Positions 1,333 to 19,078 of a stretch of DNA of 23,868 nucleotides are shown in pieces. The DNA is taken from positions 1-23,868 of the IMG/VR virus record IMGVR_UViG_3300047549_000004; one strand, given 5' to 3'. The translations under genes and the position numbers were made by a program. How positions within the stretch are numbered: position 1 is the first letter of the stretch; each line of letters begins with the position of its first letter. The notes beneath the pieces were generated by a model. That model worked only from the letters and a program-made list of their open reading frames with translations, was not told the DNA's origin and did not search any database. This DNA comes from a virus.

Positions 1333-4300
1333 CTACCACAAGCCTAAAGCTAGACCGTAACTATACGCGGTGTTATCAGTACTCGGTAATGCTTGTCTAA
1401 AATCCGTACTTTCCGACGTATTAAAACTATCCGGCGGGCTGTTAAGCCTAACCCCGTCAGAATTTATCTTGTCTGAGTATTTCCCCAAATGAAAATCAGT
1501 AGCAAAATATTTTATAGCTATGCATGCCGGTAGTACATCTGTTGTAAGTTCTCTGTTAATACGATGCCACGGGGCATTGCCGTCCGCACCAGGACCGCCG
1601 ACTAAGGAATAAGTGCCAGTATCATCTGGGTCTGTAAAATCTACGTATGTCCCATCAGCATGATTAATGTGTACGACAATTTGAGACAGTGGTAAGAATA
1701 TACCCGGTACATCGTAGGAATATGACTGAGGCAATTCAACGTAGTTAGCTGCGGCTCCACGGCAAAACCAAGGGTCAGTCTCCGCCCCGTTTGATGGTTT
1801 CTTAGCATATCTAGCAGAACTTTCCGAGGTAAGCCCGTCTACTAGGCCGAGGCCAAGACCGCTAGTGACACCAGAAACGGCGCATTGAAAATTAGTCCCT
1901 CCTGGCAGATCAGGGGCCGTTAGAATATCAAGATAATGGTACCCCTGGCCGCGAGAAGCAGTGAGAGAGACCGCAATTACTATACCGCCAGATATTGTAA
2001 ATACAGCTAGGGCACCAGACCCATTAGCAGAAACAAGTTCAAATATTTTACCATTAGCCGAATTCTGGTACCCAGAGCCACCGGTTAAACTTGTAATGGT
2101 TTCTAACGAGGCTTGTCCTCTAATCGCGCACGATAAGCCAGTTCCAACTGTCATGGCTGAAGAAGCTATTGGGGTTCCGAGATTGTCGTAAGATATGGCT
2201 GCCCCAGGGACAAGGATATCTCCCGAACGAAACTCATAACCAGGAGCTAAAGGGTCCGCGTTTACGGCAGTAACTACTCCATTAGTTACTGTTATATACC
2301 CGTACAGGGCCTTCCCGTGCCCGCCGTGCATATAACTGTACTGTCTATAAGTATCGTAGCACAGCCCGGTAGTAGGGTCTCTGTACGTGTACCCGGCTCC
2401 TCCATTGAGTACAATAATTCCCATAGGGTCTACCGCACCCGTTAATGGGGGCCTTGGAGGGGCCAGTATTTTTCTGTTATTTATTGTCTGATAGCCGTAC
2501 GACGCCCCCGGCGGCTGATAGCCGTAGTCTGTACTTACTATCGTAAGAAGAATACCAATTCCAGGAACATAATTACTTCCGGTAGACGCATTCCAAAGCG
2601 AGATAGCGTTTTGTAAGTTAGGAATATTTAGTATCGGCAAAGAATTATCTATCCATACTGGCACGGCAACGGCTTTAGCAGTTGACAATCCGGCATACGT
2701 CGGCGCAGCAATAAGATTGCTAGCTGACGGACTTGTGATAGTCGCTGTAAAAAAATATCCGGATTTAGAAACAAGTGTTATCGAAGCCTGTGTAGTTACG
2801 CCTGTAGCCCCCGGAATACTTGTGTATGGAACTGTTAAAGTTTCTCCTACATGATAACCGTAGCCAAGATATGTAAGTACAATTGACGTAACAGAGCCAC
2901 CAGAAATTATTACAGTCGCCAGAGCACCCGTGCCCGACCCCCCGGTTAAAGCTACGTTTGTGAATGACCCCGCTAACAATCCGCTTGTGGTGACGTACCC
3001 CGCCCCCGTACTGAGATTACTAGCGATTGAGACTGGGATACGAATGGTCTGCCCACATGCGAAGCTAGCGTGTCCAGACTCATTTAATATGCTGTTGACA
3101 GTTACTAAGGCACCATCGGACCCAATAGTGAATCCGATTGATACTTTATTTGTCGAATCCCATGCATAGCCGACGACACCGGCAGGAAGATATAACTGAT
3201 TATCAGCAGCATCTTTTATCAAACAATTAGGAATTCCACGAACGTCTAGGCACCGGTTATATGTTACGCCGTAAGCATAAACACTAGCTGCGTCACGGTA
3301 AACATAACTCGTGACCACCGGGGCCTCGGTCAGAGCAGGGTAGCCGCCGATATTGTACCCAGTACGTGTGGTGGAACCGGCTGCATACTCGCATGGGCCA
3401 CTTTTACTTGTGTCGTACGCAAATGTATCCGTGGTTTTTACGTATGGCATATACACGAAACGCCAACGTGTTACACCGTCATAAATTTCAAAATAATCGT
3501 CAGTGTCTGGTATTCCGCTCGGGTGGTTAGCTGCGTCTCTGCCTCCTGAAACTTCCACAACACAAACATTTGCATGTGTTATGACACCACCAGTGTAAGA
3601 AACTGGGTAACTGTTGCTCCATTTAGATATTCTTATCCCAGGAGTTGACGAGTAAGGGTCAAATTTAAGAAGCGGCAGCGTCGTGTCAGTAGCGCTAGTA
3701 GACGGCGCTAGGATTATACGGTTGGCACCGGGCGTTCCCCATATTTCAGTTGCATACCCGCTGTACCCCATCGTGCGCAGACGATCCGTTACACCAAGGC
3801 TTGTACCCTTACGTTTAGTACTAGACACGGACGTAAGTAGGCCTGCCCTTATCCTTGAAACGGGGTCTGTAGCATTTATTTCGTAGCCGTATTCGTGACC
3901 AATCTTTTTTAGCGTTGATACGTCATACGTGTAAGGAGGAGAACCGACCGTTGTAGTGGCTTGTGCGGGAACTTCAGCCGTGACAGCCGATGATTGCGCT
4001 TCAATAAATTTTGCGTCGTACTGGAATCTAGCAGACATGCTTCCGAGTAATCGCGCAATAAGTGTATAAATACCAGCGGGGTCTAATGCGGAGAAGATGG
4101 CCATTCCATCAATGGCTCTTTCGGGCATCGACTGGTAGTCCTCCCACCCATTTATATTCTCAGTGTACGGAATACTTGTTATTTTGGTTCTAAAACCAGT
4201 ACCCTGAGCTAGCCCAGCGATGTTAGTTAAACTAAAATCAAGAATGTCCCCTATTCTGTAACCGGTACCCAGAGTCACGTAAGATAAATGCGAAACAGCA

Positions 4301-4416
4301 CCACTAGTTATTGTTACAGCGGCCTCAATGCCTCTCCCCGATCCTCCGAATAAAGGTACCCTCGGGTAAACTCCATCTAAGTATCCCGACCCATTATTTG
4401 TTTCACTGTACGGCAT
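1333..4416 (-). CDS. Large modular tail-periphery protein with possible gpI-like segment, 1027 aa
   Basis: The ATG at 4414-4416 follows TAGGG by about 7 nt; the stop is TAG. Four copies of a glycine-rich beta-module are visible at residues about 9-82, 471-547, 666-767 and 772-850. Each has the form Gly-Tyr-x-Asp-Gly, then GGSGxGA, a strand with GGxVT, GYxxGD/E-L, and a closing strand. Residues about 165-230 (KKIGHEYGYEINATDPVSR, a basic stretch with KRKGTS, then MGYSGYATEIWG) recall the P2 gpI/tail-protein-I pattern, where a conserved KGT follows an arginine-rich helix. The gene order gp25-like, gp6-like, then this protein also fits gpI. The rest is Tyr/Ser/Thr-rich, beta-type sequence like fibre or baseplate-arm proteins. 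Probable role: attachment of fibres to the baseplate, or an adhesin. The gpI assignment is tentative; a virion structural protein is much surer. Confidence 0.72.
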   Translation of the reverse strand: MPYSETNNGSGYLDGVYPRVPLFGGSGRGIEAAVTITSGAVSHLSYVTLGTGYRIGDILDFSLTNIAGLAQGTGFRTKITSIPYTENINGWEDYQSMPERAIDGMAIFSALDPAGIYTLIARLLGSMSARFQYDAKFIEAQSSAVTAEVPAQATTTVGSPPYTYDVSTLKKIGHEYGYEINATDPVSRIRAGLLTSVSSTKRKGTSLGVTDRLRTMGYSGYATEIWGTPGANRIILAPSTSATDTTLPLLKFDPYSSTPGIRISKWSNSYPVSYTGGVITHANVCVVEVSGGRDAANHPSGIPDTDDYFEIYDGVTRWRFVYMPYVKTTDTFAYDTSKSGPCEYAAGSTTRTGYNIGGYPALTEAPVVTSYVYRDAASVYAYGVTYNRCLDVRGIPNCLIKDAADNQLYLPAGVVGYAWDSTNKVSIGFTIGSDGALVTVNSILNESGHASFACGQTIRIPVSIASNLSTGAGYVTTSGLLAGSFTNVALTGGSGTGALATVIISGGSVTSIVLTYLGYGYHVGETLTVPYTSIPGATGVTTQASITLVSKSGYFFTATITSPSASNLIAAPTYAGLSTAKAVAVPVWIDNSLPILNIPNLQNAISLWNASTGSNYVPGIGILLTIVSTDYGYQPPGASYGYQTINNRKILAPPRPPLTGAVDPMGIIVLNGGAGYTYRDPTTGLCYDTYRQYSYMHGGHGKALYGYITVTNGVVTAVNADPLAPGYEFRSGDILVPGAAISYDNLGTPIASSAMTVGTGLSCAIRGQASLETITSLTGGSGYQNSANGKIFELVSANGSGALAVFTISGGIVIAVSLTASRGQGYHYLDILTAPDLPGGTNFQCAVSGVTSGLGLGLVDGLTSESSARYAKKPSNGAETDPWFCRGAAANYVELPQSYSYDVPGIFLPLSQIVVHINHADGTYVDFTDPDDTGTYSLVGGPGADGNAPWHRINRELTTDVLPACIAIKYFATDFHLGKYSDKINSDGVRLNSPPDSFNTSESTDFRQALPSTDNTAYSYGLALGLW
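1867..4392 (-). repeat. Four glycine-rich beta-module copies within the 1027-aa protein
   Basis: Copies are encoded at about 4171-4392, 2776-3006, 2116-2421 and 1867-2103. They share GGSG-like turns and the G-Y-x-x-G-D/E-x-L motif with single copies in the tail sheath and in the 241-aa protein. Boundaries are estimates by eye. Confidence 0.65.
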
Positions 4417-4520
4417 GCTGGTACCCTAGTTAGCGCAGCATATATTGTTAATAAAACAAACAATGCCGGGATTACGTAAGCATCCCTTGGTGAGCACCAA
4501 CGATGCGTACACAGAAACAT
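4377..4520 (-). CDS. Possible small membrane-segment ORF, 47 aa (doubtful)
   Basis: The frame starts at the ATG at 4518-4520 and ends at a TAG at 4377-4379, overlapping the start of the 1027-aa gene by 40 nt. Residues about 15-31 (AYVIPALFVLLTIYAAL) form a hydrophobic stretch long enough to span a membrane. The only Shine-Dalgarno-like sequence is AGG very close to the ATG. The product is Cys-rich at its N-terminus and resembles nothing I know. It fills most of an otherwise empty gap but could easily be chance. Confidence 0.2.
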   Translation of the reverse strand: MFLCTHRWCSPRDAYVIPALFVLLTIYAALTRVPACRTVKQIMGRDT

Positions 4521-4619
4521 CGCCTGTCTTCATTTACCAGGCATGATTTTAGCGGGTACAATTTTAAATCCGGCAAAGGAGCGCCACGACCATGCCCAAT
4601 AGTATTCAATGAGCAGGGC
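4417..4619 (-). other. 203-bp gap with protein-like extension of the upstream frame and inverted repeats
   Basis: Apart from the doubtful 47-aa ORF there is no gene with a normal start. The frame of the 241-aa gene continues past its TAG (4620-4622) for 29 sense codons to a TGA at 4530-4532. That stretch reads like real protein (for example EYYWAWSWRSFAGFK and IVPAKIMPGK). On the plus strand, GGGAT/ATCCC arms (4468-4472 and 4482-4486) lie directly beside the near-perfect palindrome TTGGTGAGCACCAA (4487-4500). There is no U-rich tail, so I do not call a terminator. Confidence 0.5.
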
Positions 4620-5345
4620 CTAAACCCCGGCACTCACTGTATCTAGCAAGCCTACTGGAGAATTGTTAAACCACTTTTTTAATGTCCCATTAATTACGTC
4701 ATTTAATATTTCATTTTTAATTGGCGCTCTAAAAGACGTAGGCACGGTCACAGCCTGCACGGTAACACCGGTAACTGGATCTTTCAAATAGTCTGTGTGC
4801 GCGTTGCGGCCAATATAATTAACCGGGGCAATGGTACTGACTCCACCGCTTAGCATCCCGCTAGCGTCGTCAGACACAATAAAGTAAGCTCCTGGTGGTA
4901 CGTCTGGTATTGGGGTAGTAAGTGGATGCCCGGAGGAGACGGTAGCTACAGTTATAACGGCCCCGGCACCTCCCGGAATATCAGAAGGGGTTAGGTTGTT
5001 GCCCACAACATAGCCGTATCCTTGAGAAACGTACGTCGGAGTCTGCACCGCGCCACCAACAACAGAAACTGATACTCGGGCTCCGTGACCAGAGCCGCCG
5101 ACTAGCGGTACTGTGTACGTTCCGTCAGTATATCCACTACCACCGACAAAAGCTGACGTAAGAATCACACCAGCGTCATACCATTCTTTAATTTTAGCTA
5201 GCGCGATAGTTCCGTATATCACAGTAGTAAAGCTAGGGCGGATACCCGTAATACGTGTCTGATACTCCGCATCAGATGGTCGGATGCCAGCGGCCCACTT
5301 ATTATACGGCATCCCATCAACTAGTGGCATATTATTGTTAGCCAT
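4620..5345 (-). CDS. Tail-periphery protein with one glycine-rich beta-module, 241 aa
   Basis: The ATG at 5343-5345 is preceded by GAG about 8 nt upstream; the stop is TAG. Residues 1-60 form a globular lead-in (PLVDGMPYNKWAAGIRPSD, then GTIALAKIKEWYDAG). Residues about 66-137 are one copy of the GGSG beta-module (GYTDGTYTVPLVGGSGHGAR, GYVVGNNL, IPGGAGA). The C-terminal 100 residues end in a short helix (IKNEILNDVINGTLKKWF). It sits between the gp6-like wedge and the 1027-aa protein, which shares the module, so both probably belong to the same baseplate-peripheral assembly. No family recognised. The frame continues with protein-like sequence beyond the TAG, so an ancestral longer form is possible. 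Confidence 0.72.
   Translation of the reverse strand: MANNNMPLVDGMPYNKWAAGIRPSDAEYQTRITGIRPSFTTVIYGTIALAKIKEWYDAGVILTSAFVGGSGYTDGTYTVPLVGGSGHGARVSVSVVGGAVQTPTYVSQGYGYVVGNNLTPSDIPGGAGAVITVATVSSGHPLTTPIPDVPPGAYFIVSDDASGMLSGGVSTIAPVNYIGRNAHTDYLKDPVTGVTVQAVTVPTSFRAPIKNEILNDVINGTLKKWFNNSPVGLLDTVSAGV
4935..5150 (-). repeat. Glycine-rich beta-module copy in the 241-aa protein
   Basis: The module resembles the sheath copy at DNA level too. Plus-strand acgttccgtcagtata here matches acgttccgttagtata at about 18695-18711 in one base, and the flanking bases are partly alike. This suggests duplication or recombination rather than convergence. Confidence 0.6.
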
Positions 5346-5360
5346 AACCAGACTCGCTTA

Positions 5361-5375
5361 GCAAACAGTGTTTGC
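5361..5375. repeat. Dispersed 15-bp palindrome, copy A (perfect)
   Basis: gcaaacagtgtttgc has 7-bp arms around one central base. It lies in the 32-bp gap between the gp6-like gene and the 241-aa gene, 2 nt past the stop codon and 15 nt before the next ATG. The plus-strand flank is ggtta. Possible operator for a dimeric regulator; function unknown. Confidence 0.85.
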
Positions 5376-5377
5376 GG

Positions 5378-7873
5378 TTACTTGGGGGCCAGATCAAAAA
5401 CAAGGCGGCGAAGATTTATCGCACGCGGAGCCTGACTTACCAATTGCGAGTCATAGAATATCTCGCCATTGTAAAGATACGAGTCGTCGTAGTAGTTCTG
5501 CCGTGAAGCCAGCGGAGTTATGATGTCCTGCAACACCCCATATGTTAGCAGCGACCCAATTGACAGTGAACTATTTGTCGGGACTGCGGGATACAGGGGG
5601 CGACCGTCCTTAAACGGAGGCATTGAAGACGGGTAGCCAGGGATGCTATTGACCGTAGGCGGTGGGTAGGCGTCACCTGCGTACACATTGTCGTTCGTAA
5701 CACCAAATTTTACCACTTGGGTAGCACGCAAATCAGTAATAACGTCTCTGTACGTAGCTGATACAATCTGATTGGCCACCAAAGAGCTAGCAGTGAAAGT
5801 TATGTTCCAGATACCGCTATTATAGTCTATATAATTGACCGCACCATAAGACGGTGTGGTAAGAACCATTGGGCCTGAAGTAACGTATAGGATTCCGTCG
5901 CCGTTAGTATCCTGAAGAACCGTAGTATTACCGCTTGGCTGATTAACCGTTATAGTCAAAGTCCCAGGAACTACAGTCGGGTTAGCCACCGCACCAGAAA
6001 TCGTAGCACTAGTAGACGTAGCCCCGATGTTTTCCGAATCAGCTGAAGTAGCGTTATAGTCGCCGTATGCCAGCCGAGATAATTTAAAGTAGCTAACACC
6101 ATCTACCGAGTTAACGGCGTTGTAGATATCTGACGTGTAAACTGACAAACCGTCAGCATTCTGAAATACGTCAACGATAGCCGATGTAATCGCGGTTCTG
6201 ATCTGGTTTTTTGGGTACGTTGAGTCGTACTTGATAGTCTCCAAGTAAAGATCGACCCACCGCATACCGTTGACCGTAATAGCAGGACGCACAGTTATCT
6301 GATTCCGGTTACGCATAGCCTTAGCTACGTTGTAAACAGTTGAACTTGTAGCCCTGACATACCGGGAATAGTAAATCGTGCTCTGGTCAGACGAGCTAAG
6401 AGCCGTGGTAGGTGATTCAGAAGCGAACGATACGCTTTCTTTGCTCCATAGACTCAAACGAATAGTGTTAGCTACGTGTGACCCAATCCATAGATCGGGA
6501 ACAACTAGGCCGGCCCCAGCGACATTCGTTAGGGCGTCCTTGTAATCTTGGAGCGTGACGAGAGTTCCGCGAGAACGAACATACGCTGGAATATTTACAC
6601 GCAGCTCAGCAATAGTCTCACGGTCTTGACCGCCAGAAGCAGCACCAGTCGTTATTACCGCAGATACGGCTGGTGCTGCTGACGCATAATACCCCGCAAG
6701 AAACGAAGGCTTAACTGTACCGGAGAAATTTAGAGACCCTGACGCGGGAGAAAGATTGAATGCCCAAGTGCCGTTGGCATAATTTATAGAATTTGTAGAT
6801 CCGATAATATATGTTGTAACGGTACTATTAAGTAGGATCGTGAAAGTTGCGTTTGCCGTGTCTTTCAAAATCAAAGAACCATCACTGACGTTACCGGTGG
6901 GGTAAATAGTAAGCGTCAAAGATCCGGGAACTAACGGACTATTCTGAAGTATTTGAGTAAATGACTTATCCGCGCTTCCGGTATTAGTTAATGCCTGCGG
7001 TTCGCCAGATATAAACAGGGAGCCGCCAGTGTCAGCATTTACTGTGTCAGTGTTTTCAACTGGTACGGGTACCGTAGATCCGTCTACGTTAATTATCGCT
7101 TGGAGGGTACCCCTGATGGTTCCAATACCGGAGTTACCGGAGGCCCCGTTTGTTGTCCGATACGCAATTGTAATATCGCCAGAGGGGATAGCTCCAGCCA
7201 CACCGTCACCGAAAGTGAAAATTGCTTTATTGCTGCCGTCTAGGAATACTTGATATGTATTGGTTGCGGATAACTCCAGAGCGACATTATCAACTTGAGA
7301 CCACGTAACCGGAGTACCGGAGACGTTGACGGTTACTCCCCAAGACAACTCTTCAACATTCGCGTTGGTCAACGTGATAGCCATTCTTGGTTGACTGGAA
7401 GTCCTGAATATTTCCTGATACGACTTTCCCTCTTTAAGCGGTACTCGGATGTATCCCGCGCCGGGGGATATGACCGTATCTGATACGACTTCATAATTTA
7501 GGCCGTTAGCCCCGGTGATACTGCTTCCGGATTTAATTGTTCCCCCGTAAGTCGTAAGTTGACCCGGCATGCTAGTTGAACGAACGGTGACGGTGGCAGC
7601 GACAGCGGCACGAGGTTTATAGCCAACATCACGAGCTTTACGGATAGCTGAATCGTAGCGCTGTGCAGTACTCAAAAACATTTCTTGGGCAATTACATCC
7701 TGCCCAAATGAAAGAGTGTCGCCGGTCAACGCGATAAGATCAATGAGTACACTTCCAAGATTTGAAGTATTAAAATCATTCCATAGATCCGGAGCGGTTT
7801 CTTTTATAGCCCTCTGCAACTCAGCGCGGATAGTCGTGGCGTCTCTGGCCGTATAGTTGATTGTGTCGGGCAT
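5378..7873 (-). CDS. Baseplate wedge protein, T4 gp6 / P2 gpJ-like, 831 aa
   Basis: The N-terminus (INYTARDATTIRAELQRAIK, then NTSNLGSVLIDLIALTGD) and the motif FGDGVAGAIPSGDITIAYRT with G-x-x-GN at residues 220-247 are the signature of the Baseplate_J family. Residues 418-450 (ETIAELRVNIPAYVRSRGTL, then DYKDAL) are the conserved second part. This family forms the dimeric wedge that ties the baseplate together and triggers sheath contraction. At 831 aa it is longer than P2 gpJ because two similar beta-modules (residues about 313-395 and 633-710, each starting VPG(S/T)LT(L/I)T) are inserted. The ATG lies 4 nt after the stop of the gp25-like gene, so the two are probably translationally coupled. 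Confidence 0.9.
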   Translation of the reverse strand: MPDTINYTARDATTIRAELQRAIKETAPDLWNDFNTSNLGSVLIDLIALTGDTLSFGQDVIAQEMFLSTAQRYDSAIRKARDVGYKPRAAVAATVTVRSTSMPGQLTTYGGTIKSGSSITGANGLNYEVVSDTVISPGAGYIRVPLKEGKSYQEIFRTSSQPRMAITLTNANVEELSWGVTVNVSGTPVTWSQVDNVALELSATNTYQVFLDGSNKAIFTFGDGVAGAIPSGDITIAYRTTNGASGNSGIGTIRGTLQAIINVDGSTVPVPVENTDTVNADTGGSLFISGEPQALTNTGSADKSFTQILQNSPLVPGSLTLTIYPTGNVSDGSLILKDTANATFTILLNSTVTTYIIGSTNSINYANGTWAFNLSPASGSLNFSGTVKPSFLAGYYASAAPAVSAVITTGAASGGQDRETIAELRVNIPAYVRSRGTLVTLQDYKDALTNVAGAGLVVPDLWIGSHVANTIRLSLWSKESVSFASESPTTALSSSDQSTIYYSRYVRATSSTVYNVAKAMRNRNQITVRPAITVNGMRWVDLYLETIKYDSTYPKNQIRTAITSAIVDVFQNADGLSVYTSDIYNAVNSVDGVSYFKLSRLAYGDYNATSADSENIGATSTSATISGAVANPTVVPGTLTITVNQPSGNTTVLQDTNGDGILYVTSGPMVLTTPSYGAVNYIDYNSGIWNITFTASSLVANQIVSATYRDVITDLRATQVVKFGVTNDNVYAGDAYPPPTVNSIPGYPSSMPPFKDGRPLYPAVPTNSSLSIGSLLTYGVLQDIITPLASRQNYYDDSYLYNGEIFYDSQLVSQAPRAINLRRLVFDLAPK

Positions 7874-7877
7874 AGCG

Positions 7878-8276
7878 TCACCGCGTTGTTGAGAAGAATG
7901 CAGATTGAGGGAAAGATACTGAGTCTTGGTACGTGGTAGTATCGTTGGCCATCTTGAACGTGATAACGAAGTTTAGTGTCTGAGCGCTACTGGTGATTGC
8001 CACGTTAGCAACTTTAACCATAGGAGCGTATTTTGCCGCAGCCTGTTCTATGATGTACCGAATCATGGTCTGCGTACGATTGTCATTTGGCTCAAATATG
8101 TAACGGTGAATATTACTGCCGAATGATCTGCTCAGTGGACGGGTGCCGGCTGGCACAATAAGCGCCATCAGAAGATCACCCCAGGCTACTTGAGCATTAG
8201 ACTTTGAATCTAGATAGTTAGACCCCGACCGTTTGGCGGCGGGTAATGCCAAGCCGGTTAAGGATGCAGTAGCCAT
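7878..8276 (-). CDS. Baseplate wedge protein, T4 gp25 / P2 gpW-like, 132 aa
   Basis: Size, position directly before the gp6/gpJ-like gene and sequence agree with the gp25 lysozyme-like family. Seen are VAWGDLLMALIVPAGTRPLS, the RPLSRSFGSN turn, and then RTQTMIRYIIEQAAAKYAP, where the family has its arginine-turn-helix and a conserved E/Q-A...YEPR-like segment. Despite the family name these are structural sheath-initiator/wedge proteins, not enzymes. I prefer the ATG at 8274-8276; a TTG two codons upstream (8280-8282) is an alternative. No clear Shine-Dalgarno sequence is visible for either, so the start is less certain than the family. Confidence 0.85.
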   Translation of the reverse strand: MATASLTGLALPAAKRSGSNYLDSKSNAQVAWGDLLMALIVPAGTRPLSRSFGSNIHRYIFEPNDNRTQTMIRYIIEQAAAKYAPMVKVANVAITSSAQTLNFVITFKMANDTTTYQDSVSFPQSAFFSTTR

Positions 8277-8295
8277 GGGCAAAAGATATGGTCAG

Positions 8296-8592
8296 TTAGG
8301 CAGAACGGAAGCGCTTGCGCCAAGTGCAGGGCGGCAAGTGATGGCTGCTTGCTGTTAGCTCATAAGATTCAGGGGAATTAACTGACCCTCGCTCTATACC
8401 GAGCAAAAGCTCCATGGTTTTATTTATCCTAGAACGATCAACCATGTGCCCGTGTCTCATGAGTCTGACCATAATCGGAAGTGCTCTTTTCTGCCAGACT
8501 AACGCCAGTTCTGTAGGGTCCATTTCAACCCCACACGAGCAGACAGTATCAGTGCAAACACTGTTTGCGGTAGAGGTGAAGCAGCTACTCAC
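8296..8592 (-). CDS. Small Cys-rich hypothetical protein, 98 aa
   Basis: I chose the GTG at 8590-8592 because AGGAG lies 5 nt before it. The N-terminus is Cys-rich (C4, C13, C18, C20), followed by a helical part (DPTELALVWQKRALPIMVRL, HGHMVDRSR) and HHLPPC near the end, so a small metal-binding fold is possible. One copy of the dispersed palindrome falls in codons 9-13. An ATG at 8521-8523 would start a 75-aa product and leave the palindrome in the intergenic gap, as at other sites. No family recognised. Its place between the 422-aa protein and the gp25-like wedge suggests a small baseplate or assembly protein. Confidence 0.6.
   Translation of the reverse strand: MSSCFTSTANSVCTDTVCSCGVEMDPTELALVWQKRALPIMVRLMRHGHMVDRSRINKTMELLLGIERGSVNSPESYELTASSHHLPPCTWRKRFRSA
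8554..8568. repeat. Dispersed 15-bp palindrome, copy B (perfect)
   Basis: gcaaacactgtttgc, identical to the reverse complement of copy A. It lies near the 5' end of the 98-aa reading frame, or in its leader if the internal ATG at 8521-8523 is the true start. Confidence 0.85.
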
Positions 8593-8635
8593 AGTGACTC
8601 CTAGAAGATTTAGTTAGTGTACATTTATGGTGGGG

Positions 8636-9904: not shown

Positions 9905-9913
9905 GCTGGTTCC

Positions 9914-10996: not shown

Positions 10997-11002
10997 ATTA
11001 TC

Positions 11003-12373
11003 TCAGCTAACTTGCTTAGTTATAGTTGTACTATCATCGTTTGTCGGAGTACCAAGATCCGAAGTTGCTTGTGTAACTCCAGGAAGATTAACCAGACCAG
11101 GAAGAGTGTCCCCTATTCCTTCCTTGAATAGATTACACCCAGTCATAAATCCGCGAGAACTGTCTATAGTATGAGCTAAACGAGAAATACGGAACAGCCC
11201 GCCCATGGGATGGTTGGTACCATCACGCCTTCTGTATCTAACTTCTACAAGCTGCCCCATCTTCAAAGACCAGTTACCAAGGACCGTAAGGGTAGCGGTT
11301 ACGTAGGCGGATCGAAGATAGCCGTATACGGCTTGTGCTCTAAGAGCAGCGTCTCCGGGAGTTCTATCTTGAAGCGTCGTGTAGCTCTGTGTGCCTGCAC
11401 TGACAGGCATAACATTTTTAGCATCTGACTGCACAGATATGTCAAGTGATACGCCATTGCTCGACGGGGACGTGGTTACTGTAGTCGTTGAGCCGTCAAC
11501 TGAATTTACACTCTTGTATACGGCAGCACTACCTCCAAGCATGGCCGCGCCAACGCCAGAGTATTCCGGCTCGAACTGGAATACGTCACCGGCAGAATCA
11601 CGGGCGTACTCGTACGATGCAACTATAGCTTCCCTATTGTCGTTTGTAGAAGACGAGTCGTATCCTTTGGAGTGGAAGTGCATTACTCCACTTTGGTCAA
11701 AATAAAAATCAAATGGTTTACCCTCGCGGTTTACAGCAAGTGGCATTATCTTTTTTAGGATAAATCCACATGTAGTGTCGTTTAATTCGGTAGCAAGATC
11801 GGCTTCAATTATGCCGCTAGACTCTTCTATTATAGGGTCTTTCCATACCGTCTTTATAACGTTGTTGGTAAGTAATTTGGTCGGTGTACCGTTACTAGAT
11901 TGTTTTGCCGGTACGACTATCTCTTTGGCTGCTATATGAGAAACCATTTGAGACGCAGTATACTTGTAGCCGGGGAAGGAAAAAGTATTAGCCGGTAACT
12001 TGTTGGTCCCGGCTTCGTACGAATGCTCAACTACACAATTTATAGAAGTTCCAAAACCGTCAGGCAAGAATTTTGGTGAAAAACTTACTACACTCAACTC
12101 CATTACGGGGTTGGAGTCTTCTTTCCAGCCAAAAGATAAAGTTAGAGCACTATTCTGACCGGCCATTACTAAACTTGATTCTAGATCTGACCCCTCACCG
12201 TCGAATAATTCTATTATGACGTGGTATGACCCCATATCACTTACTTCTGCTTTAGCAGACTGAAAAAATCTAGTAAAATCAAGAACTGTATCCGGACTGT
12301 CGGCTACATTGAACTTTACACTGAACGCGAGATCTCTCTCACTACGGGCCGATCCACCAAGTAGATTAGGCAT
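11003..12373 (-). CDS. Baseplate hub protein, gp27/gpD-like, 456 aa
   Basis: The position directly upstream of the spike gene, the length and the motif order fit the phage late-control gene D/gp27 hub family. Seen are a first beta-barrel with FGWKEDSNPVMEL, a middle part with YKYTASQMVSHIAAKE and FYFDQSGVMHFHSKG, and a last barrel with LTVLGNWSLKMGQLVEVRY and GGLFRISRLAHTIDSSRGF. In the virion this trimer would join the tail tube to the spike. The start ATG overlaps the end of the LysM-like gene by 8 nt, which suggests translational coupling. The last 30 residues are a Thr/Gly-rich tail of unclear use. Confidence 0.83.
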   Translation of the reverse strand: MPNLLGGSARSERDLAFSVKFNVADSPDTVLDFTRFFQSAKAEVSDMGSYHVIIELFDGEGSDLESSLVMAGQNSALTLSFGWKEDSNPVMELSVVSFSPKFLPDGFGTSINCVVEHSYEAGTNKLPANTFSFPGYKYTASQMVSHIAAKEIVVPAKQSSNGTPTKLLTNNVIKTVWKDPIIEESSGIIEADLATELNDTTCGFILKKIMPLAVNREGKPFDFYFDQSGVMHFHSKGYDSSSTNDNREAIVASYEYARDSAGDVFQFEPEYSGVGAAMLGGSAAVYKSVNSVDGSTTTVTTSPSSNGVSLDISVQSDAKNVMPVSAGTQSYTTLQDRTPGDAALRAQAVYGYLRSAYVTATLTVLGNWSLKMGQLVEVRYRRRDGTNHPMGGLFRISRLAHTIDSSRGFMTGCNLFKEGIGDTLPGLVNLPGVTQATSDLGTPTNDDSTTITKQVS

Positions 12374-12710
12374 TTACTGGTGCCCTTGCTACAAAAGTTA
12401 GAACAGTCTGTAGCGGCGGTATAGTTAGGCTTTGCCCGACGTACATATCCACCTCGGGGTCAAGTATCTTGTTAGCCTGAGCTATAGCCCACCACATAAA
12501 TTCATAGCCGTCACCATACGTAAGAAATGCTACCCTATCCAAAAAACCAACATCCGCCCTCGTAACCGTATAGATGTTCCACGAGTTATCCGGTGACTGA
12601 AATTCAGTGGGTGGCTGCCACAGGCCGAATGACGTATTATTGTAGACTACTTCAGAGAATACAGAAGTGTCTTTATACCGCGTGTTCTTTGGCAGAGATA
12701 TAGTAACCAT
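12366..12710 (-). CDS. Baseplate wedge, gp53-like / LysM-like protein, 114 aa
   Basis: The second half carries the pattern seen in gp53-like and LysM-type baseplate proteins: VGFLDRVAFLTYGDGYEFMW, then WAIAQANKILDPEVDMYVGQ and SLTIP. In LysM terms it has an aromatic-rich helix, the Asn before an Asp-Pro turn and the final G-x-x-L-x-I-P strand. In tails this fold is structural, a baseplate/tube adaptor next to the hub; binding to peptidoglycan is possible but not needed. The ATG has GGAAG 5 nt upstream. The gene lies 11 nt after the upstream gene and overlaps the hub gene by 8 nt. Confidence 0.8.
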   Translation of the reverse strand: MVTISLPKNTRYKDTSVFSEVVYNNTSFGLWQPPTEFQSPDNSWNIYTVTRADVGFLDRVAFLTYGDGYEFMWWAIAQANKILDPEVDMYVGQSLTIPPLQTVLTFVARAPVNA

Positions 12711-12721
12711 AATTACTTCCT

Positions 12722-13348
12722 TTAGCTACGGAATCTCAGGGAGCCGTTACCGGTGTTAGTCCCAGAGTAGCGCTTAGGATTAAGTGAGCTTGAAGAGAAT
12801 ACAATATCAACAACCGCCGATGTGGGGTACAATTTTTCCGGTGTGAATGGGGCTTCCCAAGTTATGTTACATGATGTCACAAGAGCACGCATAGTTAACA
12901 GTTGCCCGATCATTAGGATAACCGAAGGCGGGTTGTAGACTACTCCCTCCGGAGAAGTTACGGTGTATTTCAAAGCGTCCAGCCATCTAGCCGGGGATAT
13001 AACTTCATGCATACAGGCGTCTTCAATGTCGGTGAATTGGGTTCCCTGAACTTGGAAATGGAATTGCATAGGAACAGTTCTATTGGTTGCCCCAGTGTAT
13101 ACCATAATATCTTCTAATCGCCCAAGTATTGACACGTTAGAATACGATGGTTTTGAACTTTCGCTTATACCACGGCTAGTATCGAAGAACGGAACATTGA
13201 GTGAGTTTTGAGTGTACAGAGAATCCAGGACATTACTAAGAATTGTAGGACCGTAGCCAACCCAGTCAGGGTCAATGTCTATACGGATAGACGAATCCTG
13301 CGTGTCCGTGGCTACAATCGTAGTGTCACCAATAGAGCGAAGTGCCAT
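12722..13348 (-). CDS. Baseplate tube-initiator-like protein (gp48/54 position), 208 aa
   Basis: The gene follows the tape measure, where tube-initiator or baseplate hub adaptors are found. The C-terminal half has a typical arrangement: a wL-like segment (ARWLDALKYTVTSPEGVVYN), PPSVILMIGQLLTMRALVTS, a tryptophan strand NITWEAPFTPEKLYP and AVVDIVFSSSS. I know this pattern from tube-like baseplate proteins with a TIP/tube fold. It would seed tail-tube polymerisation on the hub. The assignment is by pattern and context. The palindrome copy C abuts its Shine-Dalgarno region: the last base of the copy is part of GAG in TTTGAGTAAACTATG. Confidence 0.65.
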   Translation of the reverse strand: MALRSIGDTTIVATDTQDSSIRIDIDPDWVGYGPTILSNVLDSLYTQNSLNVPFFDTSRGISESSKPSYSNVSILGRLEDIMVYTGATNRTVPMQFHFQVQGTQFTDIEDACMHEVISPARWLDALKYTVTSPEGVVYNPPSVILMIGQLLTMRALVTSCNITWEAPFTPEKLYPTSAVVDIVFSSSSLNPKRYSGTNTGNGSLRFRS

Positions 13349-13355
13349 AGTTTAC

Positions 13356-13370
13356 TCAAACAGTGTTTGC
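13356..13370. repeat. Dispersed 15-bp palindrome, copy C (outer base differs)
   Basis: tcaaacagtgtttgc keeps 6-bp arms around the centre. It lies in the 24-bp gap between the tape measure and the next gene, 2 nt past the stop and 7 nt before the ATG. Plus-strand flank agtta. Confidence 0.8.
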
Positions 13371-13372
13371 AG

Positions 13373-15406
13373 TTAGTTATTAGATCCAGGAATACGATTA
13401 AAGTTAGCGATGGCTACGGCATGTGGATCGCCAGTAACTACTGCTACTCTGTCTGCCAATTGGGAAGTTGGCGACATTGATGGTCGATGTGCATGCAAAG
13501 CTCCACCCTGGGCCGGAGTACTGCCAAGTCCTGGGGCAGCTTTCTTAAGTTCTTCGTCGCTTGGCATTGTAGGCTGAGAGACCGGTGGCGCGTTCGACTT
13601 AAACAGTGCTGGGTTAGCCCAACCACCGCCCATAGCCTGTGTAGCGCCCCACGCACCCTTACCACCATTATTTATTTGGTCGTCAATCATGCTGTAGATG
13701 CCACTAGCTACTGTAGCGACTATGGCTGTACCCCCAGCGACGGCCAGTGCGCTGCCAGCAGTTATGCCCCCGACAGAGGCTGCGTCCTTAGCGATCGTCG
13801 CGGCCGTCGCCCCATCCTTAAGAGTCTTAAGTTCTTTAAGTACTTTCCAGCTATTTAGAAGAGTAATTATAGAAATTAGAGAAGTAGCCACCCCGGACAG
13901 CATGTTGCCGATCCCGTTTATTCCTAGGAAGATATTTCTAAAATTCTCACTCTGAGTTACCGTTGCTTTTAGGGACTCGGTTAAATTTGTAAAAGCGTCA
14001 CGGGAATCCTCAAGACTCTTAAGCAATTGCTGCTGGGCGTCTTCTGGGCGAACTCGCAGCCTCTCTGTTCTTTCCATACTTGCGTTGAAAGCTGGAAGAG
14101 CCACAGACAAGGCATTGGTATCAAGTCCGACAGACTTTAGCAACTCATTCAGAAGAACAGAAGCTTTCTTGTCTTTGCCAATAGCTCCAAGGAAGTTTGA
14201 ATTTAACCGAAGACCAGAGTAATCACCGGTATCGACCATCTTGTCGATTTCCCCTGAGCTTTTCTTGAAAAGAATCTCCAAAGCTCTAGCCTCGTCAGAC
14301 CCGGCGTTCTTCCGACCCTTTGTTATGAGGGTAGATATTACGTTGGCTAATTGCGGACCAGCGCCTGTGCCGGAAGCAGCGGCCAGCAGACTAGTAGCGC
14401 CGGTAGCAGCCCCCATTCCCGACATAAAACCAGCGTTTGTCGAAAGAAAACTTGTTAGGGCTGTCGTGGTTGACCCCGTGGTTGCACCACCGGCCTTAGA
14501 AGCCGCCTGAATCTGCGCAAGGATAGTCATTCTATCACTAGCCGATAGCTCTGGCCCGTACGCTGACAGAGCCATCATTAGCTGAACCATTTCAGAGTCT
14601 GTACTAATACCGGCCTGAACACCGAGACCCCCGGCATTAGCTGACTTCATAATCGTTCCCTGGTCAGCATGCTGTTGCATAAGCATCGCACCAATGCTCA
14701 GACCACCGCTGACGTTATATTTATTCTTCCACCACGGTTGTCCGGCGTTCATACCCTGAGCGCCCTGTAGTATACTCGCCACGCCGCTTCTTCCAATTTG
14801 GGAAGTAAGAGCCATCTCGTCGCCTATGCTGCTCATCACCGAATTGTTCATGGAACCAATAGCGCCAGTGTTAAATACATCACGAACGGCATCACCAGCA
14901 CCACGAAGAACGGCGAATTTGGCCGTTATAGAATTAGCCTTCTCATTCATTTTTTCTAGTTGCTGGAGGCTTCTAGATAGCTCTAAATTGTACATGACCG
15001 CATTACCGGTCATCAATTGCCCTTGCGTGTTAAGAGTACCGTATATCTGAGCAACATCTTGCATGTTGTTCTTGATGTACGTGTTCCACTTATTTAACTC
15101 TTTGGCGTTCTCCGAAGCTTTACCGACCCCAAGAGCCAACTTAGTTTGAGCCAAACTAGCAGCATTAACACCAGCAGCGATATTTTGAAATGCGCTCTGC
15201 ATTCCAGACGATTTGTCGCGGCCAATTACGTCACGGATCTTATCTAAAGAATCAACAATTCTTTTTTGGTCATTTGTATTTAGAAATGACTGCGAGGCCT
15301 TGTTTAACTCTTCACGAATCTTGTTAGATTCTTTAAGGATATCCCGAGATGAAGAAAAGAATCCTGCCGTGTTTAACTTGGCTACAAAATCCACGATGTT
15401 AGACAC
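13373..15406 (-). CDS. Tape measure protein, 677 aa
   Basis: It is the longest gene between tail tube/chaperones and baseplate, with the composition of a tape measure: long helical, Gln/Lys/Asn/Ala-rich N-terminal half, Gly/Ala-rich centre, and two hydrophobic segments near the C-terminus (residues about 498-515 with LISIITLL, and 549-574 with SALAVAGGTAIVATVASG). Tape measures set tail length and leave the tail during DNA ejection. About 1.5 angstrom per residue would give a tail near 100 nm. No peptidase or lysozyme motif is seen. The start is GTG at 15404-15406, chosen because the strong Shine-Dalgarno AGAGGAAG ends 5 nt before it. The gene begins 15 nt after the chaperone-like ORF. Confidence 0.86.
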   Translation of the reverse strand: MSNIVDFVAKLNTAGFFSSSRDILKESNKIREELNKASQSFLNTNDQKRIVDSLDKIRDVIGRDKSSGMQSAFQNIAAGVNAASLAQTKLALGVGKASENAKELNKWNTYIKNNMQDVAQIYGTLNTQGQLMTGNAVMYNLELSRSLQQLEKMNEKANSITAKFAVLRGAGDAVRDVFNTGAIGSMNNSVMSSIGDEMALTSQIGRSGVASILQGAQGMNAGQPWWKNKYNVSGGLSIGAMLMQQHADQGTIMKSANAGGLGVQAGISTDSEMVQLMMALSAYGPELSASDRMTILAQIQAASKAGGATTGSTTTALTSFLSTNAGFMSGMGAATGATSLLAAASGTGAGPQLANVISTLITKGRKNAGSDEARALEILFKKSSGEIDKMVDTGDYSGLRLNSNFLGAIGKDKKASVLLNELLKSVGLDTNALSVALPAFNASMERTERLRVRPEDAQQQLLKSLEDSRDAFTNLTESLKATVTQSENFRNIFLGINGIGNMLSGVATSLISIITLLNSWKVLKELKTLKDGATAATIAKDAASVGGITAGSALAVAGGTAIVATVASGIYSMIDDQINNGGKGAWGATQAMGGGWANPALFKSNAPPVSQPTMPSDEELKKAAPGLGSTPAQGGALHAHRPSMSPTSQLADRVAVVTGDPHAVAIANFNRIPGSNN

Positions 15407-15421
15407 GGCAACTTCCTCTAG

Positions 15422-15628
15422 CTAGCGTTTACGGCTGTTCTTTATTGCGTCGGTTTCCTGCTTTAATTGTTTAATCAAGCGCTGTACATGCCAGTTGAAG
15501 TCCTCAACGAACATACGCCCAATTGCATCAGTATTATAGCCACCCTTACCGGCGTAACATAAAAAGAACGTGTTCTCTCTTACTGTTTCAAGATCATAGA
15601 TTGGAAGGGCGAAAGAATTCACGCCCAA
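15422..15628 (-). CDS. Small tail assembly chaperone-like protein, 68 aa, overlapping the gp26-like gene
   Basis: The product contains YDLETVRENTFFLCYAGKGG, an aromatic/acidic middle and WHVQRLIKQLKQETDAIKNS, which is the pattern of the small protein that often follows gp26-family genes in myophage tails. It overlaps the gp26-like gene by 35 nt in the +1 (equivalently -2) frame. No ATG fits; candidates are TTG at 15626-15628 and GTG at 15620-15622, with only a GGGG run in front. Either an unusual start is used or ribosomes shift frame in the overlap, for example near TTC TTT CGC. Its position between tube and tape measure matches the frameshifted gpG/gpGT chaperones of other phages. Confidence 0.7.
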   Translation of the reverse strand: MGVNSFALPIYDLETVRENTFFLCYAGKGGYNTDAIGRMFVEDFNWHVQRLIKQLKQETDAIKNSRKR

Positions 15629-16316
15629 TCGGCAACCCCATTTCGGTCTCCTCGCTACACTTTACGCATACAGGCTTTACATTAGTGGACATTCCAGATT
15701 CCAAAGCTTCAAGCCTGTTCTTTATGCGAATAACATCCGCAGCAGTAAGCTGACGCACGAAGATAGCTTTCTCAGCGGCGGTCAACGGATTTCCATCCTT
15801 GGCGATGATCTGGCGCTCCAGGGTAAGAATGTGCTCGCTAGTGTTAAGCTGGGTAAGTTTGGCCTTGCGAATAGCTTCCTCGTCAGACCCTCGCAGGAAG
15901 CGCAGATCAACCGAACACTCCGCGTCTGCCAAGTGTACCGTGATAGGCTCTACACAGTTCTCGTCTGGGTTCTTGATGGTAAGATCAGTCAGCAAATCAC
16001 AGACTTTATCATTGCGGGCACCACAGCTTGGGCACTTGTAATCATACATATATTGAGCACTGAACGAGTACGAGCGAATAGCGAAGAGGAGATACATACG
16101 GTCAGACGATAGCAGCTCGTTAGGCGAAAGCCCGTCAGGAAGCAGAGAGCAACGCTTAATGACCTCCTCCATACGAACGTCAATGTGGCCCTGTTCAAGT
16201 ATTGAAAGTTCTGAAATAGTCATCTTACGGACTTCTACGGTGCCGCCTGGAAGACGGTCGCCATAGAACTTACCCAAAGACGGAAGAGTAAATTTTTTAG
16301 TCGTGGCGTTAGCCAT
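15594..16316 (-). CDS. T4 gp26-family tail/baseplate assembly protein, 240 aa
   Basis: The N-terminus FTLPSLGKFYGDRLPGGTVE, then VRKMTISELSILEQG, is the signature of the T4 gp26-type baseplate family, found between tube and tape measure in many myophages, where it probably acts as an assembly chaperone. Two CxxC pairs (C95-x2-C98 in CPSC, C217-x2-C220 in CVKC) could form a zinc ribbon split by about 118 residues. The end, LPIGREFFRPSNL, is the usual family C-terminus, so this frame gives a complete product by itself. AGGAAA lies about 7 nt before the ATG. Palindrome copy D sits 19 nt upstream of the start. Confidence 0.82.
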   Translation of the reverse strand: MANATTKKFTLPSLGKFYGDRLPGGTVEVRKMTISELSILEQGHIDVRMEEVIKRCSLLPDGLSPNELLSSDRMYLLFAIRSYSFSAQYMYDYKCPSCGARNDKVCDLLTDLTIKNPDENCVEPITVHLADAECSVDLRFLRGSDEEAIRKAKLTQLNTSEHILTLERQIIAKDGNPLTAAEKAIFVRQLTAADVIRIKNRLEALESGMSTNVKPVCVKCSEETEMGLPIGREFFRPSNL

Positions 16317-16335
16317 GGTTATATTTCCTATGCCT

Positions 16336-16350
16336 GCAAACGCTGTTTGC
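16336..16350. repeat. Dispersed 15-bp palindrome, copy D (one arm mismatch)
   Basis: gcaaacgctgtttgc lies in the 55-bp gap between the tail tube gene and the gp26-like gene. The plus-strand flank agttat matches the degenerate copy at 1245 and agtta at copy C. Confidence 0.8.
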
Positions 16351-16371
16351 AGTTATTATGTTCTTGCAAAG

Positions 16372-16953
16372 TTAAGATCCAAATTGCCCGCTGATGTTGG
16401 TAGCTAGAGAACCAAAACCGTCACCCGCAACCCATTTATCAACACATAGGCGCATAGAGATCATAACGAGATCATCTGAGTCTTGGTCAAACGGGGCGTG
16501 GTTGAACGAGGCTGGCCAGATACCGAGAATATTGTATGTTCGAGATAGTGTGCTGTCTGGCGCAAACATAATAACATCGGCACGTTTGGCGTAGTTCTTC
16601 TTGAAACCGATCTTACCGTTAGTCGGGTCGTACACTTGGGCACGCCAATTCAGCAACAGGGGAACAATAGCTACGTCTACGTAGTCGTGGTACATTACGT
16701 CCATGTCACCGAAGTTAGGAACTCCAGCAAACTTTCGCGCCTCGTTCATGTAGCGAACTTGCTTCACATCATTACTTACGGTAGGGCCAGTAAACGATTT
16801 CAGCGAAAGCTGAAGAACGTCGTCACCACCGCCGGTACCGCCAGTTACATTATAAATGTATAATGTAGCGTTATTCTGACGCTGCGGTTCATAGCTATTA
16901 CTCGTTCCAGCAGCGCCAACGTGATTAGCGGTCAAATCATTTGGATAAGCCAT
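16372..16953 (-). CDS. Tail tube protein, gp19-like, 193 aa
   Basis: The gene follows the sheath gene directly and has the size of a contractile-tail tube subunit (T4 gp19 is slightly shorter). Seen are QLSLKSFTGPTVSNDVKQVR, a central NYAKRADVIMFAPDSTLSRT strand-rich segment, and TYNILGIWPASFNHAPFDQD, the interface where tube proteins carry the late strand pair (I-x-x-x-x-WP...). It would form the hexameric rings through which DNA passes. AGGA lies about 8 nt before the ATG. The 16-nt spacing to the sheath fits one transcript. Confidence 0.87.
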   Translation of the reverse strand: MAYPNDLTANHVGAAGTSNSYEPQRQNNATLYIYNVTGGTGGGDDVLQLSLKSFTGPTVSNDVKQVRYMNEARKFAGVPNFGDMDVMYHDYVDVAIVPLLLNWRAQVYDPTNGKIGFKKNYAKRADVIMFAPDSTLSRTYNILGIWPASFNHAPFDQDSDDLVMISMRLCVDKWVAGDGFGSLATNISGQFGS

Positions 16954-16969
16954 GGTGTATTCCTACTTT

Positions 16970-19078
16970 TTAGACCGACGTATTGCCGAACGTGGTGCCT
17001 GCACCGAAGATAACGAAATCCTCAGTAATGATCTCAGCACCTTCCATAGCGGCAATGAGTATCTTGCCGTTCATCGTCTTATTCTGGCGCTGGGCAGGCG
17101 GGTTGGTTGTGGCGTCACAGATAACTTTGAATGTTTCTAGGCCCCGCGCCGAAGCAATACGAGCGAGGATAGGGTTTACCAGCGCGGTGAACTTACGCCA
17201 CGTTGTCGTATCATTAGGCTCAAACGTCAGATACTGGGTGGTTGTCGCGACCAGTTTCTCGGCATAGAGGAGCATACGGCGAGTATGGATATTGGTCAGT
17301 GCAGTCTGTTTACGCTGGAGAGTGCGATTACCCCATACGAGAAGACCGGAGTTATAGAATTGAGTGATAGGGTTAGCACGGTTAGTCGTGTTTATACCGC
17401 ACATCAGATCACGGTCAGCTTGGCTGGGGGTAACTTCGCCCTTGATACCGGCAATCTTGCCGCGGGTATATCCAGCCGGAATAGCCCAAGGGCCGTTGAC
17501 GGAATCGTTGTATGCGAGAGCCGCAGCAACGAATGCCGAAGGCGGGAGCCAGATGGTCTGCTTGATGTAGCTATCAAAAACTTGGACCCACGGAGCAAAT
17601 ACGGCTCCGTAACTGGAATCTAGCGGAGCACTGGGGGCATTTGGATAAGCAGAAGTGGAGAACGGCTGGCCATTTATGGTACCGTTATGCCACGCCGTGA
17701 CATACGAAGCATAATTTAACGATGCATTGCTCGGATTCGTACCGGCAAGACCGAACGGAGGGTCAACAAGAACAAAACAGTCACCCCGCTTCGTGGCAAT
17801 ATCTAACATACCAGAGCCGCCAGCGGCACCGGTACCGATGACCGAAGCAAAAGCTGCGCCGGGAGCCATGAGTACGTTGAACTCAGTGGTTTCCGGATTT
17901 GACAGTGCCTGGAGTCCGGTAGGGGTCGGGGCTGTGACACCGATATACGAAGCAAGGTAGTCAGCAGAATTATAAACCGGAATACCGTCAGACCCCGAAA
18001 CGGGACTGCCCTGTGCGGATACCCCGTAGTACAACGGTTGCCAATTAGTACCGTTTGTACCGGTAAAAGCCTGGGAAACCGTACCACCGTTGGTATTGGT
18101 TATCCTAGCGGAAACATACTGCGATCCAGCTGTCTCGCCACTCTTGCCAAAGGCCAGGATATTTACGATATACCGTTCATTATTGCTGTCGGTTGATAAA
18201 TTATTAAACCGCTCAACCTGAGTATACGTTGCGCTAGCGGTATCGTAAGAATAGACAATAAGATCAAAATAGGACGCACTGTAGTACGGGCTATTTGGAA
18301 CAACTGATGCTGAGGAAGCAATTGCAGAAATATTACCAGGAGTGCCCGTGGCCCCGGTCATTCTACCGACGAAGTCAGTTGTGGTTGCCCCATACTGACC
18401 GTTTATTACGCCATAAGGGAGTATCTGGTATCGCAGGCTGTTTCCCCAACTACCAGGGCTGATAGCCGATATAACAAGGCCGGCACTTCCAGAAGAAGCA
18501 ATCCCGATAGTAGCCACCGGAACAGTAAAGCCCGTTCCGGTACCTCCGATGCTAGAAGCAGCAGCAGATAGCGTATTTCCAACTGCGTAATTTATGCCAC
18601 CAGCGGTAAGGGTTACAGTTGTCACTGCTCCTAGTGCTACGACAATATTTGCAGTAGCGCCCGTACCAGACCCACCAGTGAGCGGGACGTTATTATACGT
18701 TCCGTTAGTATACAGATTACCGCCAGTAACAGTCCCCAGACTAGTTACGGCCCCGTTTCCACCGGAGATAGTACACGTCGCGGAAACGGCTGGGGTTGCC
18801 ACGGAGGATATACGAGTATATAGAAGCCGGTTCCCCTGCTTCAAGAAGCGGATAGCTGAGAGCAAGCCGTAGTCACTGGCATTGTACAGGCCGAGAGTTG
18901 GCGCACCGAAAATCTGAACAAGCTGCTGTTCGCTATTAATTACTGTCGGGGTGTTTATAGGCCCTTTGGTCGCACCGCCAACGACAGCAAGAATAGTAGT
19001 GCTAAGAAGTGTAGCATAGTCGGAGTAGTCAAACTCACGCACGTATATGCCAGCAGAGACTGGGGTTGAAACGGCCAT
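16970..19078 (-). CDS. Contractile tail sheath protein, 702 aa
   Basis: The N-terminus (VSAGIYVREFDYSDY, AVVGGATKGPINTP) and the C-terminal domain are those of phage tail sheaths. The latter includes NPITQFYNSGLLVWGNRTLQ, the RRML helix, TFEPNDTTTWRKF and the I-C-D-x-x-TN strand. The N-terminal handshake strand and C-terminal domain interlock subunits; contraction drives the tube through the cell envelope. At 702 aa it is longer than T4 gp18, partly because residues about 115-193 hold one copy of the glycine-rich beta-module also found in two fibre-region proteins. That module should point outward, because the conserved core is intact on both sides. The start ATG has AAGG about 9 nt upstream. 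Confidence 0.95.
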   Translation of the reverse strand: MAVSTPVSAGIYVREFDYSDYATLLSTTILAVVGGATKGPINTPTVINSEQQLVQIFGAPTLGLYNASDYGLLSAIRFLKQGNRLLYTRISSVATPAVSATCTISGGNGAVTSLGTVTGGNLYTNGTYNNVPLTGGSGTGATANIVVALGAVTTVTLTAGGINYAVGNTLSAAASSIGGTGTGFTVPVATIGIASSGSAGLVISAISPGSWGNSLRYQILPYGVINGQYGATTTDFVGRMTGATGTPGNISAIASSASVVPNSPYYSASYFDLIVYSYDTASATYTQVERFNNLSTDSNNERYIVNILAFGKSGETAGSQYVSARITNTNGGTVSQAFTGTNGTNWQPLYYGVSAQGSPVSGSDGIPVYNSADYLASYIGVTAPTPTGLQALSNPETTEFNVLMAPGAAFASVIGTGAAGGSGMLDIATKRGDCFVLVDPPFGLAGTNPSNASLNYASYVTAWHNGTINGQPFSTSAYPNAPSAPLDSSYGAVFAPWVQVFDSYIKQTIWLPPSAFVAAALAYNDSVNGPWAIPAGYTRGKIAGIKGEVTPSQADRDLMCGINTTNRANPITQFYNSGLLVWGNRTLQRKQTALTNIHTRRMLLYAEKLVATTTQYLTFEPNDTTTWRKFTALVNPILARIASARGLETFKVICDATTNPPAQRQNKTMNGKILIAAMEGAEIITEDFVIFGAGTTFGNTSV
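18500..18736 (-). repeat. Glycine-rich beta-module copy inserted in the tail sheath
   Basis: It encodes YTNGTYNNVPLTGGSGTGAT, a GAVTTVTLTAGG strand, YAVGNTLS and GGTGTGFTVPV. It is the clearest copy of the module and sits in the sheath's variable outer region. Confidence 0.75.

Follow-up and report, generated by a model that had tools for sequence, protein, structure and literature searches.

The window analysed here is a stretch of 23,868 nucleotides of virus DNA (IMG/VR record IMGVR_UViG_3300047549_000004) that is a cluster of tail genes from a phage with a contractile tail and T4-like organisation. Our subject is a module of about 85 residues that recurs in three of the proteins encoded there: the tail sheath, a protein of 241 residues (P241) and a protein of 1027 residues (P1027). 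Both the recognised genes and every gene with the module lie on the minus strand. Through Pfam or PHROGs we identified sheath, tube, hub, gp5-like, gp25-like and gp6-like proteins, where gp5, gp25 and gp6 are what we take to be the T4 names of these families. A 55,589-base contig, G001, includes the whole window at 100% identity (in overlapping pieces of 7,400 and 16,968 bases) and is, judged by this identity, from the same virus; the window is a fragment of this longer contig.

The 702-residue protein is the contractile tail sheath, of the gp18 family, and has the sheath core domains: it scored 30.5 bits with Gp18_domIII_N (cut-off 27) and 29.9 bits with Phage_sheath_1C (cut-off 26.9) in Pfam, matched phrog_23 at E 6.6e-58, and its model matched T4 gp18 chain 3j2m_U at Z 31.8 and 9f4a_SA at Z 35.9. 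As for the other two hosts, the PHROG matches of P241 were confined to the module or its surroundings; a search of IMG/VR for relatives of P241 returned this virus and two distant loci and nothing more, and one for relatives of P1027 returned none beyond this virus.

A sequence-only reading of the window had proposed six copies of one homologous module (one each in the sheath and P241, and four, here called A to D, in P1027), and its reuse across the three proteins is borne out by two sets of scores. In a leave-one-out test, five copies scored the sixth against up to 1000 composition shuffles of that sixth copy; the null2-corrected bits, with the shuffle maximum in brackets, were 50.1 (5.6) for the sheath, 48.3 (13.2) for P241, 58.4 (14.7) for A, 49.3 (9.5) for B, 34.8 (10.4) for D and 13.3 (11.3) for C. 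The second set came from a model built solely from 68 modules of other phages (the outside model), which was run on 22 proteins, namely the 21 open reading frames (ORFs) of the window and a protein encoded near head genes that is described below; the best of its controls, 22 reversed and 440 shuffled sequences, reached 4.7 bits. Here the sheath scored 103.2 bits (residues 111-192), P241 61.6 (63-139), B 54.3 (478-546), A 53.4 (5-82), D 40.1 (772-852) and C 9.1 (670-738), and none of the remaining window ORFs exceeded the best control, the next being an ORF of 187 residues at 4.3. Because of these scores and their controls, five of the six copies are, at the level of sequence, beyond doubt homologues, and copy C is a probable decayed one; the proposed count of six is thus secure for the sheath, P241, A, B and D, and marginal for C.

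Another explanation would be that the copies are alike only as glycine-rich, low-complexity sequence, without homology. Their composition is indeed biased, and tblastn with the module alone returned nothing with the low-complexity filter on, but five of the six copies lie far above shuffles that preserve composition. We therefore reject this explanation for those five and give it next to no weight overall; it is possible for copy C.

Features of the window (positions are those of the 23,868-nucleotide stretch)
Feature	Position	Strand	Basis or context
Tail sheath gene, 702 residues, hosts one module	16970..19078	-	Pfam, phrog_23, T4 gp18 structure match
Sheath module, residues 109-193	18500..18754	-	leave-one-out, outside model, AlphaFold, alignment with T4
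P241 gene, 241 residues	4620..5345	-	adjoins gp6-like baseplate wedge gene
P241 module, residues 60-140	4926..5168	-	leave-one-out, outside model, AlphaFold
P1027 gene, 1027 residues, four module copies	1333..4416	-	ORF list, PHROG and module-profile scans
P1027 copy A, residues 5-82	4171..4404	-	leave-one-out, outside model
P1027 copy B, residues 475-546	2779..2994	-	leave-one-out, outside model
P1027 copy C, residues 673-765, marginal	2122..2400	-	leave-one-out, outside model
P1027 copy D, residues 772-852	1861..2103	-	leave-one-out, outside model
13-base palindromes, CAAACANTGTTTG type	5362-5374, 8555-8567, 13357-13369, 16337-16349, 19676-19688, 22512-22524		

A further copy, the seventh, lies beyond the window in G001, where a protein of 203 residues (P0004) scored 107.7 bits with the outside model; its gene lies close before those for a head maturation protease (phrog_207) and the major head protein (phrog_138), and its module is 70% identical in protein sequence to that of the sheath. 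The module had been assigned to the sheath and two tail-periphery proteins, which holds for those three but is too narrow given this further copy beside head genes.

Site and predicted fold of the module

When eleven sheaths, T4 gp18 among them, were aligned with this one, its residues 106-211 fell opposite T4 residues 98-188, which are Domain I, and by this alignment the module occupies the Domain I position, between a sheath core strand and a Domain II-like region. T4 gp18 Domain I protrudes outward, according to PMC3004832, and since the alignment puts the sheath copy at that site, the module is likely displayed on the tail surface. The suggestion of a surface module on the tail shaft agrees well with this placement.

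Between the core anchors this sheath has 293 residues, versus 123-133 in six short relatives (SP-15, LIS04, L006, L101, L105 and L115; L numbers denote loci) that have nothing at the module site; the corresponding lengths in others were 150 (L113), 219 (GXN1), 234 (L120), 273 (T4) and 392 (L003), and relatives other than the short ones carry other inserts. The sheaths L003:3576-5873 and L004:9065-11746 have long inserts at the same site built from a different kind of repeat (GDTITLND-like); this insertion site thus takes different domains. The idea that the module is exchangeable gains support from this search for sheaths without the insertion, because the relatives either lack the module or have other inserts in its place.

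The module was present in two of the 35 distinct sheath ORFs gathered, this sheath and that of L017, and the whole module was present in none of 15 T4-type gp18 proteins. We had expected that the IMG/VR loci retrieved with the sheath would for the most part encode sheaths bearing the module at this position; this was wrong, as L017 alone did so besides this virus. The L017 sheath (L017:9509-11371) is a partial one of another family (phrog_10581) that has two tandem modules and ends at the contig end; of the two relatives checked, XacN1 gave only negative module scores and RaK2 gave no row. As two different sheath families hold the module, the sequences suggest that sheaths gained it at least twice.

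Two of the six window copies were modelled with AlphaFold. Block means of confidence were 89-97 at residues 61-130 and 85 at residues 131-140 of P241, and 92-95 at residues 111-190 of the sheath, where the predicted local distance difference test score (pLDDT) fell under 50 on both flanks of the module (93-107 and 195-270). The predicted strands lie at residues 59-67, 75-82, 90-96, 104-107, 117-120 and 130-137 of P241 and at 109-114, 126-132, 139-148, 151-162, 169-171 and 185-192 of the sheath. The same six-strand order is thus predicted with high confidence in both copies, and the different folds that would have spoken against a shared module were not seen in these two.

Comparisons with known structures were less telling as to the identity of the fold. 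Foldseek with the P241 model found nothing in the PDB at E<=0.001, with sugar-binding proteins solely among insignificant rows. With VIA-align, 31 of 996 chains reached at least Z 2, the best being an EF-Tu domain of a Qbeta holoenzyme entry (3.4) followed by baseplate proteins of phages Pa193 (3.3) and Mu (3.0), which is too weak for naming the fold. A search of BFVD gave 26 matches at E<=0.001, including two cyanophage proteins, a baseplate wedge and a virion structural one, and tail-fibre-like and neck proteins at weaker E. In the comparison of the sheath model, the three top T4-type entries aligned over 403-419 residues and the other entries listed over at most 349, with a root mean square deviation of about 7; the longer T4-type alignments may reflect pairing of the module with the extra T4 domain, in an output that came without residue assignment.

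Kin in other phages and known families

Our survey covered 194 loci plus this virus, with a module counted at 40 bits or more. It yielded 163 ORFs with at least one module, and after masking of the module these hosts formed 24 clusters, four of which are this virus's own proteins; the largest cluster (124 ORFs) was built by single linkage and may chain. In five phrog_3287-type proteins (four of them assigned), the module is a clean loop insert at two sites: (i) at the first site it is present in L009, L018 and L011 and absent from L023 and L045; (ii) at the second it is present in L011, L023 and L045 and absent from L009, and L018 ends before the site. We also noted an open frame of 1626 residues (L190:2838-7715) with 11 modules at 40 bits or more. 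Since this virus has its own copies in several proteins and there are kin in unrelated phage proteins, the module looks, from these sequences, like an ornament common to many unrelated phage particle proteins that moves between phages.

No family in Pfam lay above cut-off for the module (32 modules at E<=0.01, and 29 plus one whole protein at laxer limits). The lone NCBIfam row, a PTS fructose transporter at E 0.0076 with one of the 32 modules, was taken as chance. Against PDB sequences, phmmer with the module alone gave no match, and profile searches gave at best E 0.058 and 0.043, to a GH31 glucosidase over about 55 columns, which we did not believe. An internal repeat of two halves was also considered and dropped (hhalign 15.57, versus 15.41 for the best of 60 column shuffles). 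In a limited literature search we found no published description of the module. In PHROGs, parts of the profiles of families 5342, 6005, 438, 4406 and 32294 (tail fiber, virion structural, baseplate wedge) matched 26-31 of the 32 modules, with phrog_5342 matched by 31; these are whole-protein families in which the module is neither delimited nor described. Taken together, its PHROG matches span tail, baseplate, head and connector families.

There is precedent for domains that behave in this way. Immunoglobulin (Ig)-like accessory domains of phages resemble the module in being found in unrelated virion proteins of different phages (24 host clusters here). However, the Pfam scans gave no Ig-like family above cut-off for the module, the one weak row being SgrA_ig-like at E 0.073 and 13.7 bits versus a cut-off of 27. 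As to an Ig beta-sandwich fold, the highest Z among the PDB matches of the P241 model was 3.4. According to PMC9230969, additional domains of sheaths, often Ig-like, sit on the conserved core away from the tube, and horizontal exchange and weak carbohydrate contact have been proposed for them. The module is likewise an extra domain on a conserved sheath core, but it differs from the domains described there in having no Pfam Ig match above cut-off and in having kin in many other virion proteins. Protein mosaicism, in which otherwise unrelated phage proteins have domains in common, has been described mostly for receptor-binding and baseplate proteins (PMC10684548, in part); the tail sheath goes unmentioned in the accessible portion of that paper, whereas in this virus the module is carried by a sheath and by a protein of the head cluster. 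Variable extra sheath domains and mosaic phage proteins are therefore known kinds, and the module itself is, within our searches, without a convincing counterpart in Pfam, NCBIfam or the PDB.

One named domain, T4 gp18 Domain I (PF22639), holds the same place in the sheath chain and is similar over a stretch of 20 residues. Aligned with hhalign against the first 20 residues of Domain I from six T4-type sequences, the module scored 25.6, versus 16.05 for the best control window, with a probability of 39% for the 20-column match. The module profile weakly matched the start of Domain I in the gp18 proteins of T4, RB43, ER13, AhFM11 and Proteus, and PF22639 in turn gave weak rows in two of 30 proteins scanned, starting at the same 20-residue spot (best 16.3 bits, cut-off 27). 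Compared by strand count, the module (as predicted) and T4 Domain I each have six; the profile match is limited to the 20 columns, and because this stretch is short, shared ancestry is a lead only. The bolder proposal, that gp18 Domain I is a diverged member of the module family and that the sheath site is a general dock refilled from one pool of mobile beta-domains, we regard as rather doubtful. If it were true, the pool would also serve heads, necks, baseplates and fibres, and what is now a classic domain of sheaths would have begun as a mobile ornament that was captured.

Spread, role and rival readings

It had been suggested that the module duplicates and recombines inside this genome. In favor of this, four genes of the virus hold seven copies between them, the copy in the sheath is close in protein sequence to the one in the head cluster, and the sheath and P241 copies share a short DNA match. 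This match is real (79% over 29 nucleotides, plus-strand positions 5116-5144 and 18696-18724), but it encodes a common peptide (GGNLYTNGT / GGSGYTDGT), and the two copies use the same codon at 13 of 37 shared residues when 10.8 would be expected (p=0.26). The shared peptide, with codon sharing at the level expected from codon usage, thus accounts for the match. Among 80 distinct modules, the best protein match lay elsewhere for all seven own copies, and the best DNA match was an own copy for one of seven only (copy B with the head-cluster copy), several of these DNA best matches being insignificant. Codon identity showed no excess in 20 of the 21 own pairs; the exception, A with C, was borderline at p=0.050, and we discount it because 21 tests would yield one such value. 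A tree of modules built from 75 rows and 88 columns lacked resolution, and the approximately unbiased (AU) test rejected none of the groupings tried, with p-AU values of 0.32 for sheath with P241, 0.31 for sheath with the head-cluster copy and 0.41 for A, B and D. Since best matches lie mostly in other phages and codon excess is lacking, the data give no support to recent exchange within the genome, and exchange between phages fits the sequences best. We consider spread by recombination within this genome very unlikely as the mechanism, although an ancient origin of the own copies in this genome is possible because the tree does not reject a clade of all seven.

A plausible scenario explaining these data, and the one that we think probable, is that the module forms a small beta domain of its own, with which phages ornament their virion proteins in plug-in fashion. 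In this scenario the predicted six-strand domain would plug into its hosts, and its two ends would lie close together, so that a loop could take it up with the fold of the host left intact; the copies would come from other phages, through recombination that is illegitimate or uses short homology. With the sheath copy at the Domain I site, each sheath subunit would show a module outward along the tail, and the other copies would be borne by two proteins encoded beside baseplate genes and one encoded beside head genes.

Several points weigh against this scenario or narrow what its evidence can carry: (i) P0004 is a head-cluster protein by gene position and a candidate virion protein; (ii) the alignments behind the sheath and P241 models, which were compared by strand order, have many module rows in common, so the two AlphaFold models are in agreement and not independent proof; (iii) the survey is not an unbiased census, because patterns of the sheath and head-cluster copies supplied most of the loci, of which the best 79 and the best 80 were retained; (iv) five of the 35 sheath ORFs start at a contig edge, so the module site may be absent from them; (v) L017 entered the set by way of its module and is incomplete at the contig end; and (vi) the clade of all seven own copies was not rejected by the AU test (p-AU 0.20).

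As to function, the most likely role of the module would, by analogy with what has been proposed for the Ig-like domains of phages, be weak contact with surfaces at many points at once. The main rival would be docking or cementing, with modules attaching to one another or to fibres; fibres or baseplate proteins would then fold back onto the sheath, or neighbouring subunits would be held together. In T4, Domain I contacts the baseplate while the sheath is extended and also binds retracted long tail fibres (PMC3004832), tail stabilisation has been proposed for extra sheath domains (PMC9230969), and the module is shared by the sheath and proteins whose genes lie next to baseplate genes. On the other hand, the module is also found in many unrelated protein clusters, which a dedicated partner of the sheath would not call for, and we hold docking to be unlikely. 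If the module is a generic unit of adhesion or docking, it would explain part of the role of variable sheath domains and would be a non-Ig counterpart of the Ig-like phage domains. The module is common to sheaths, fibres and proteins of the baseplate and head cluster, and a name for it would aid the annotation of many structural proteins.

Palindromes and a start codon

A 13-base palindrome of the type CAAACANTGTTTG occurs at 16 sites in G001, versus a mean of 0.13 and a maximum of 2 in 200 mononucleotide shuffles. Three of the six sites in the window sit 9-21 bases before a gene start (ORFs of 241, 208 and 240 residues) and three lie inside ORFs; the palindrome could be a phage operator or other regulatory site. 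An ORF of 98 residues (window 8296-8592) has a GTG start at 8592 with a palindrome within its start region, and an in-frame ATG about 30 bases past the palindrome may be its true start.

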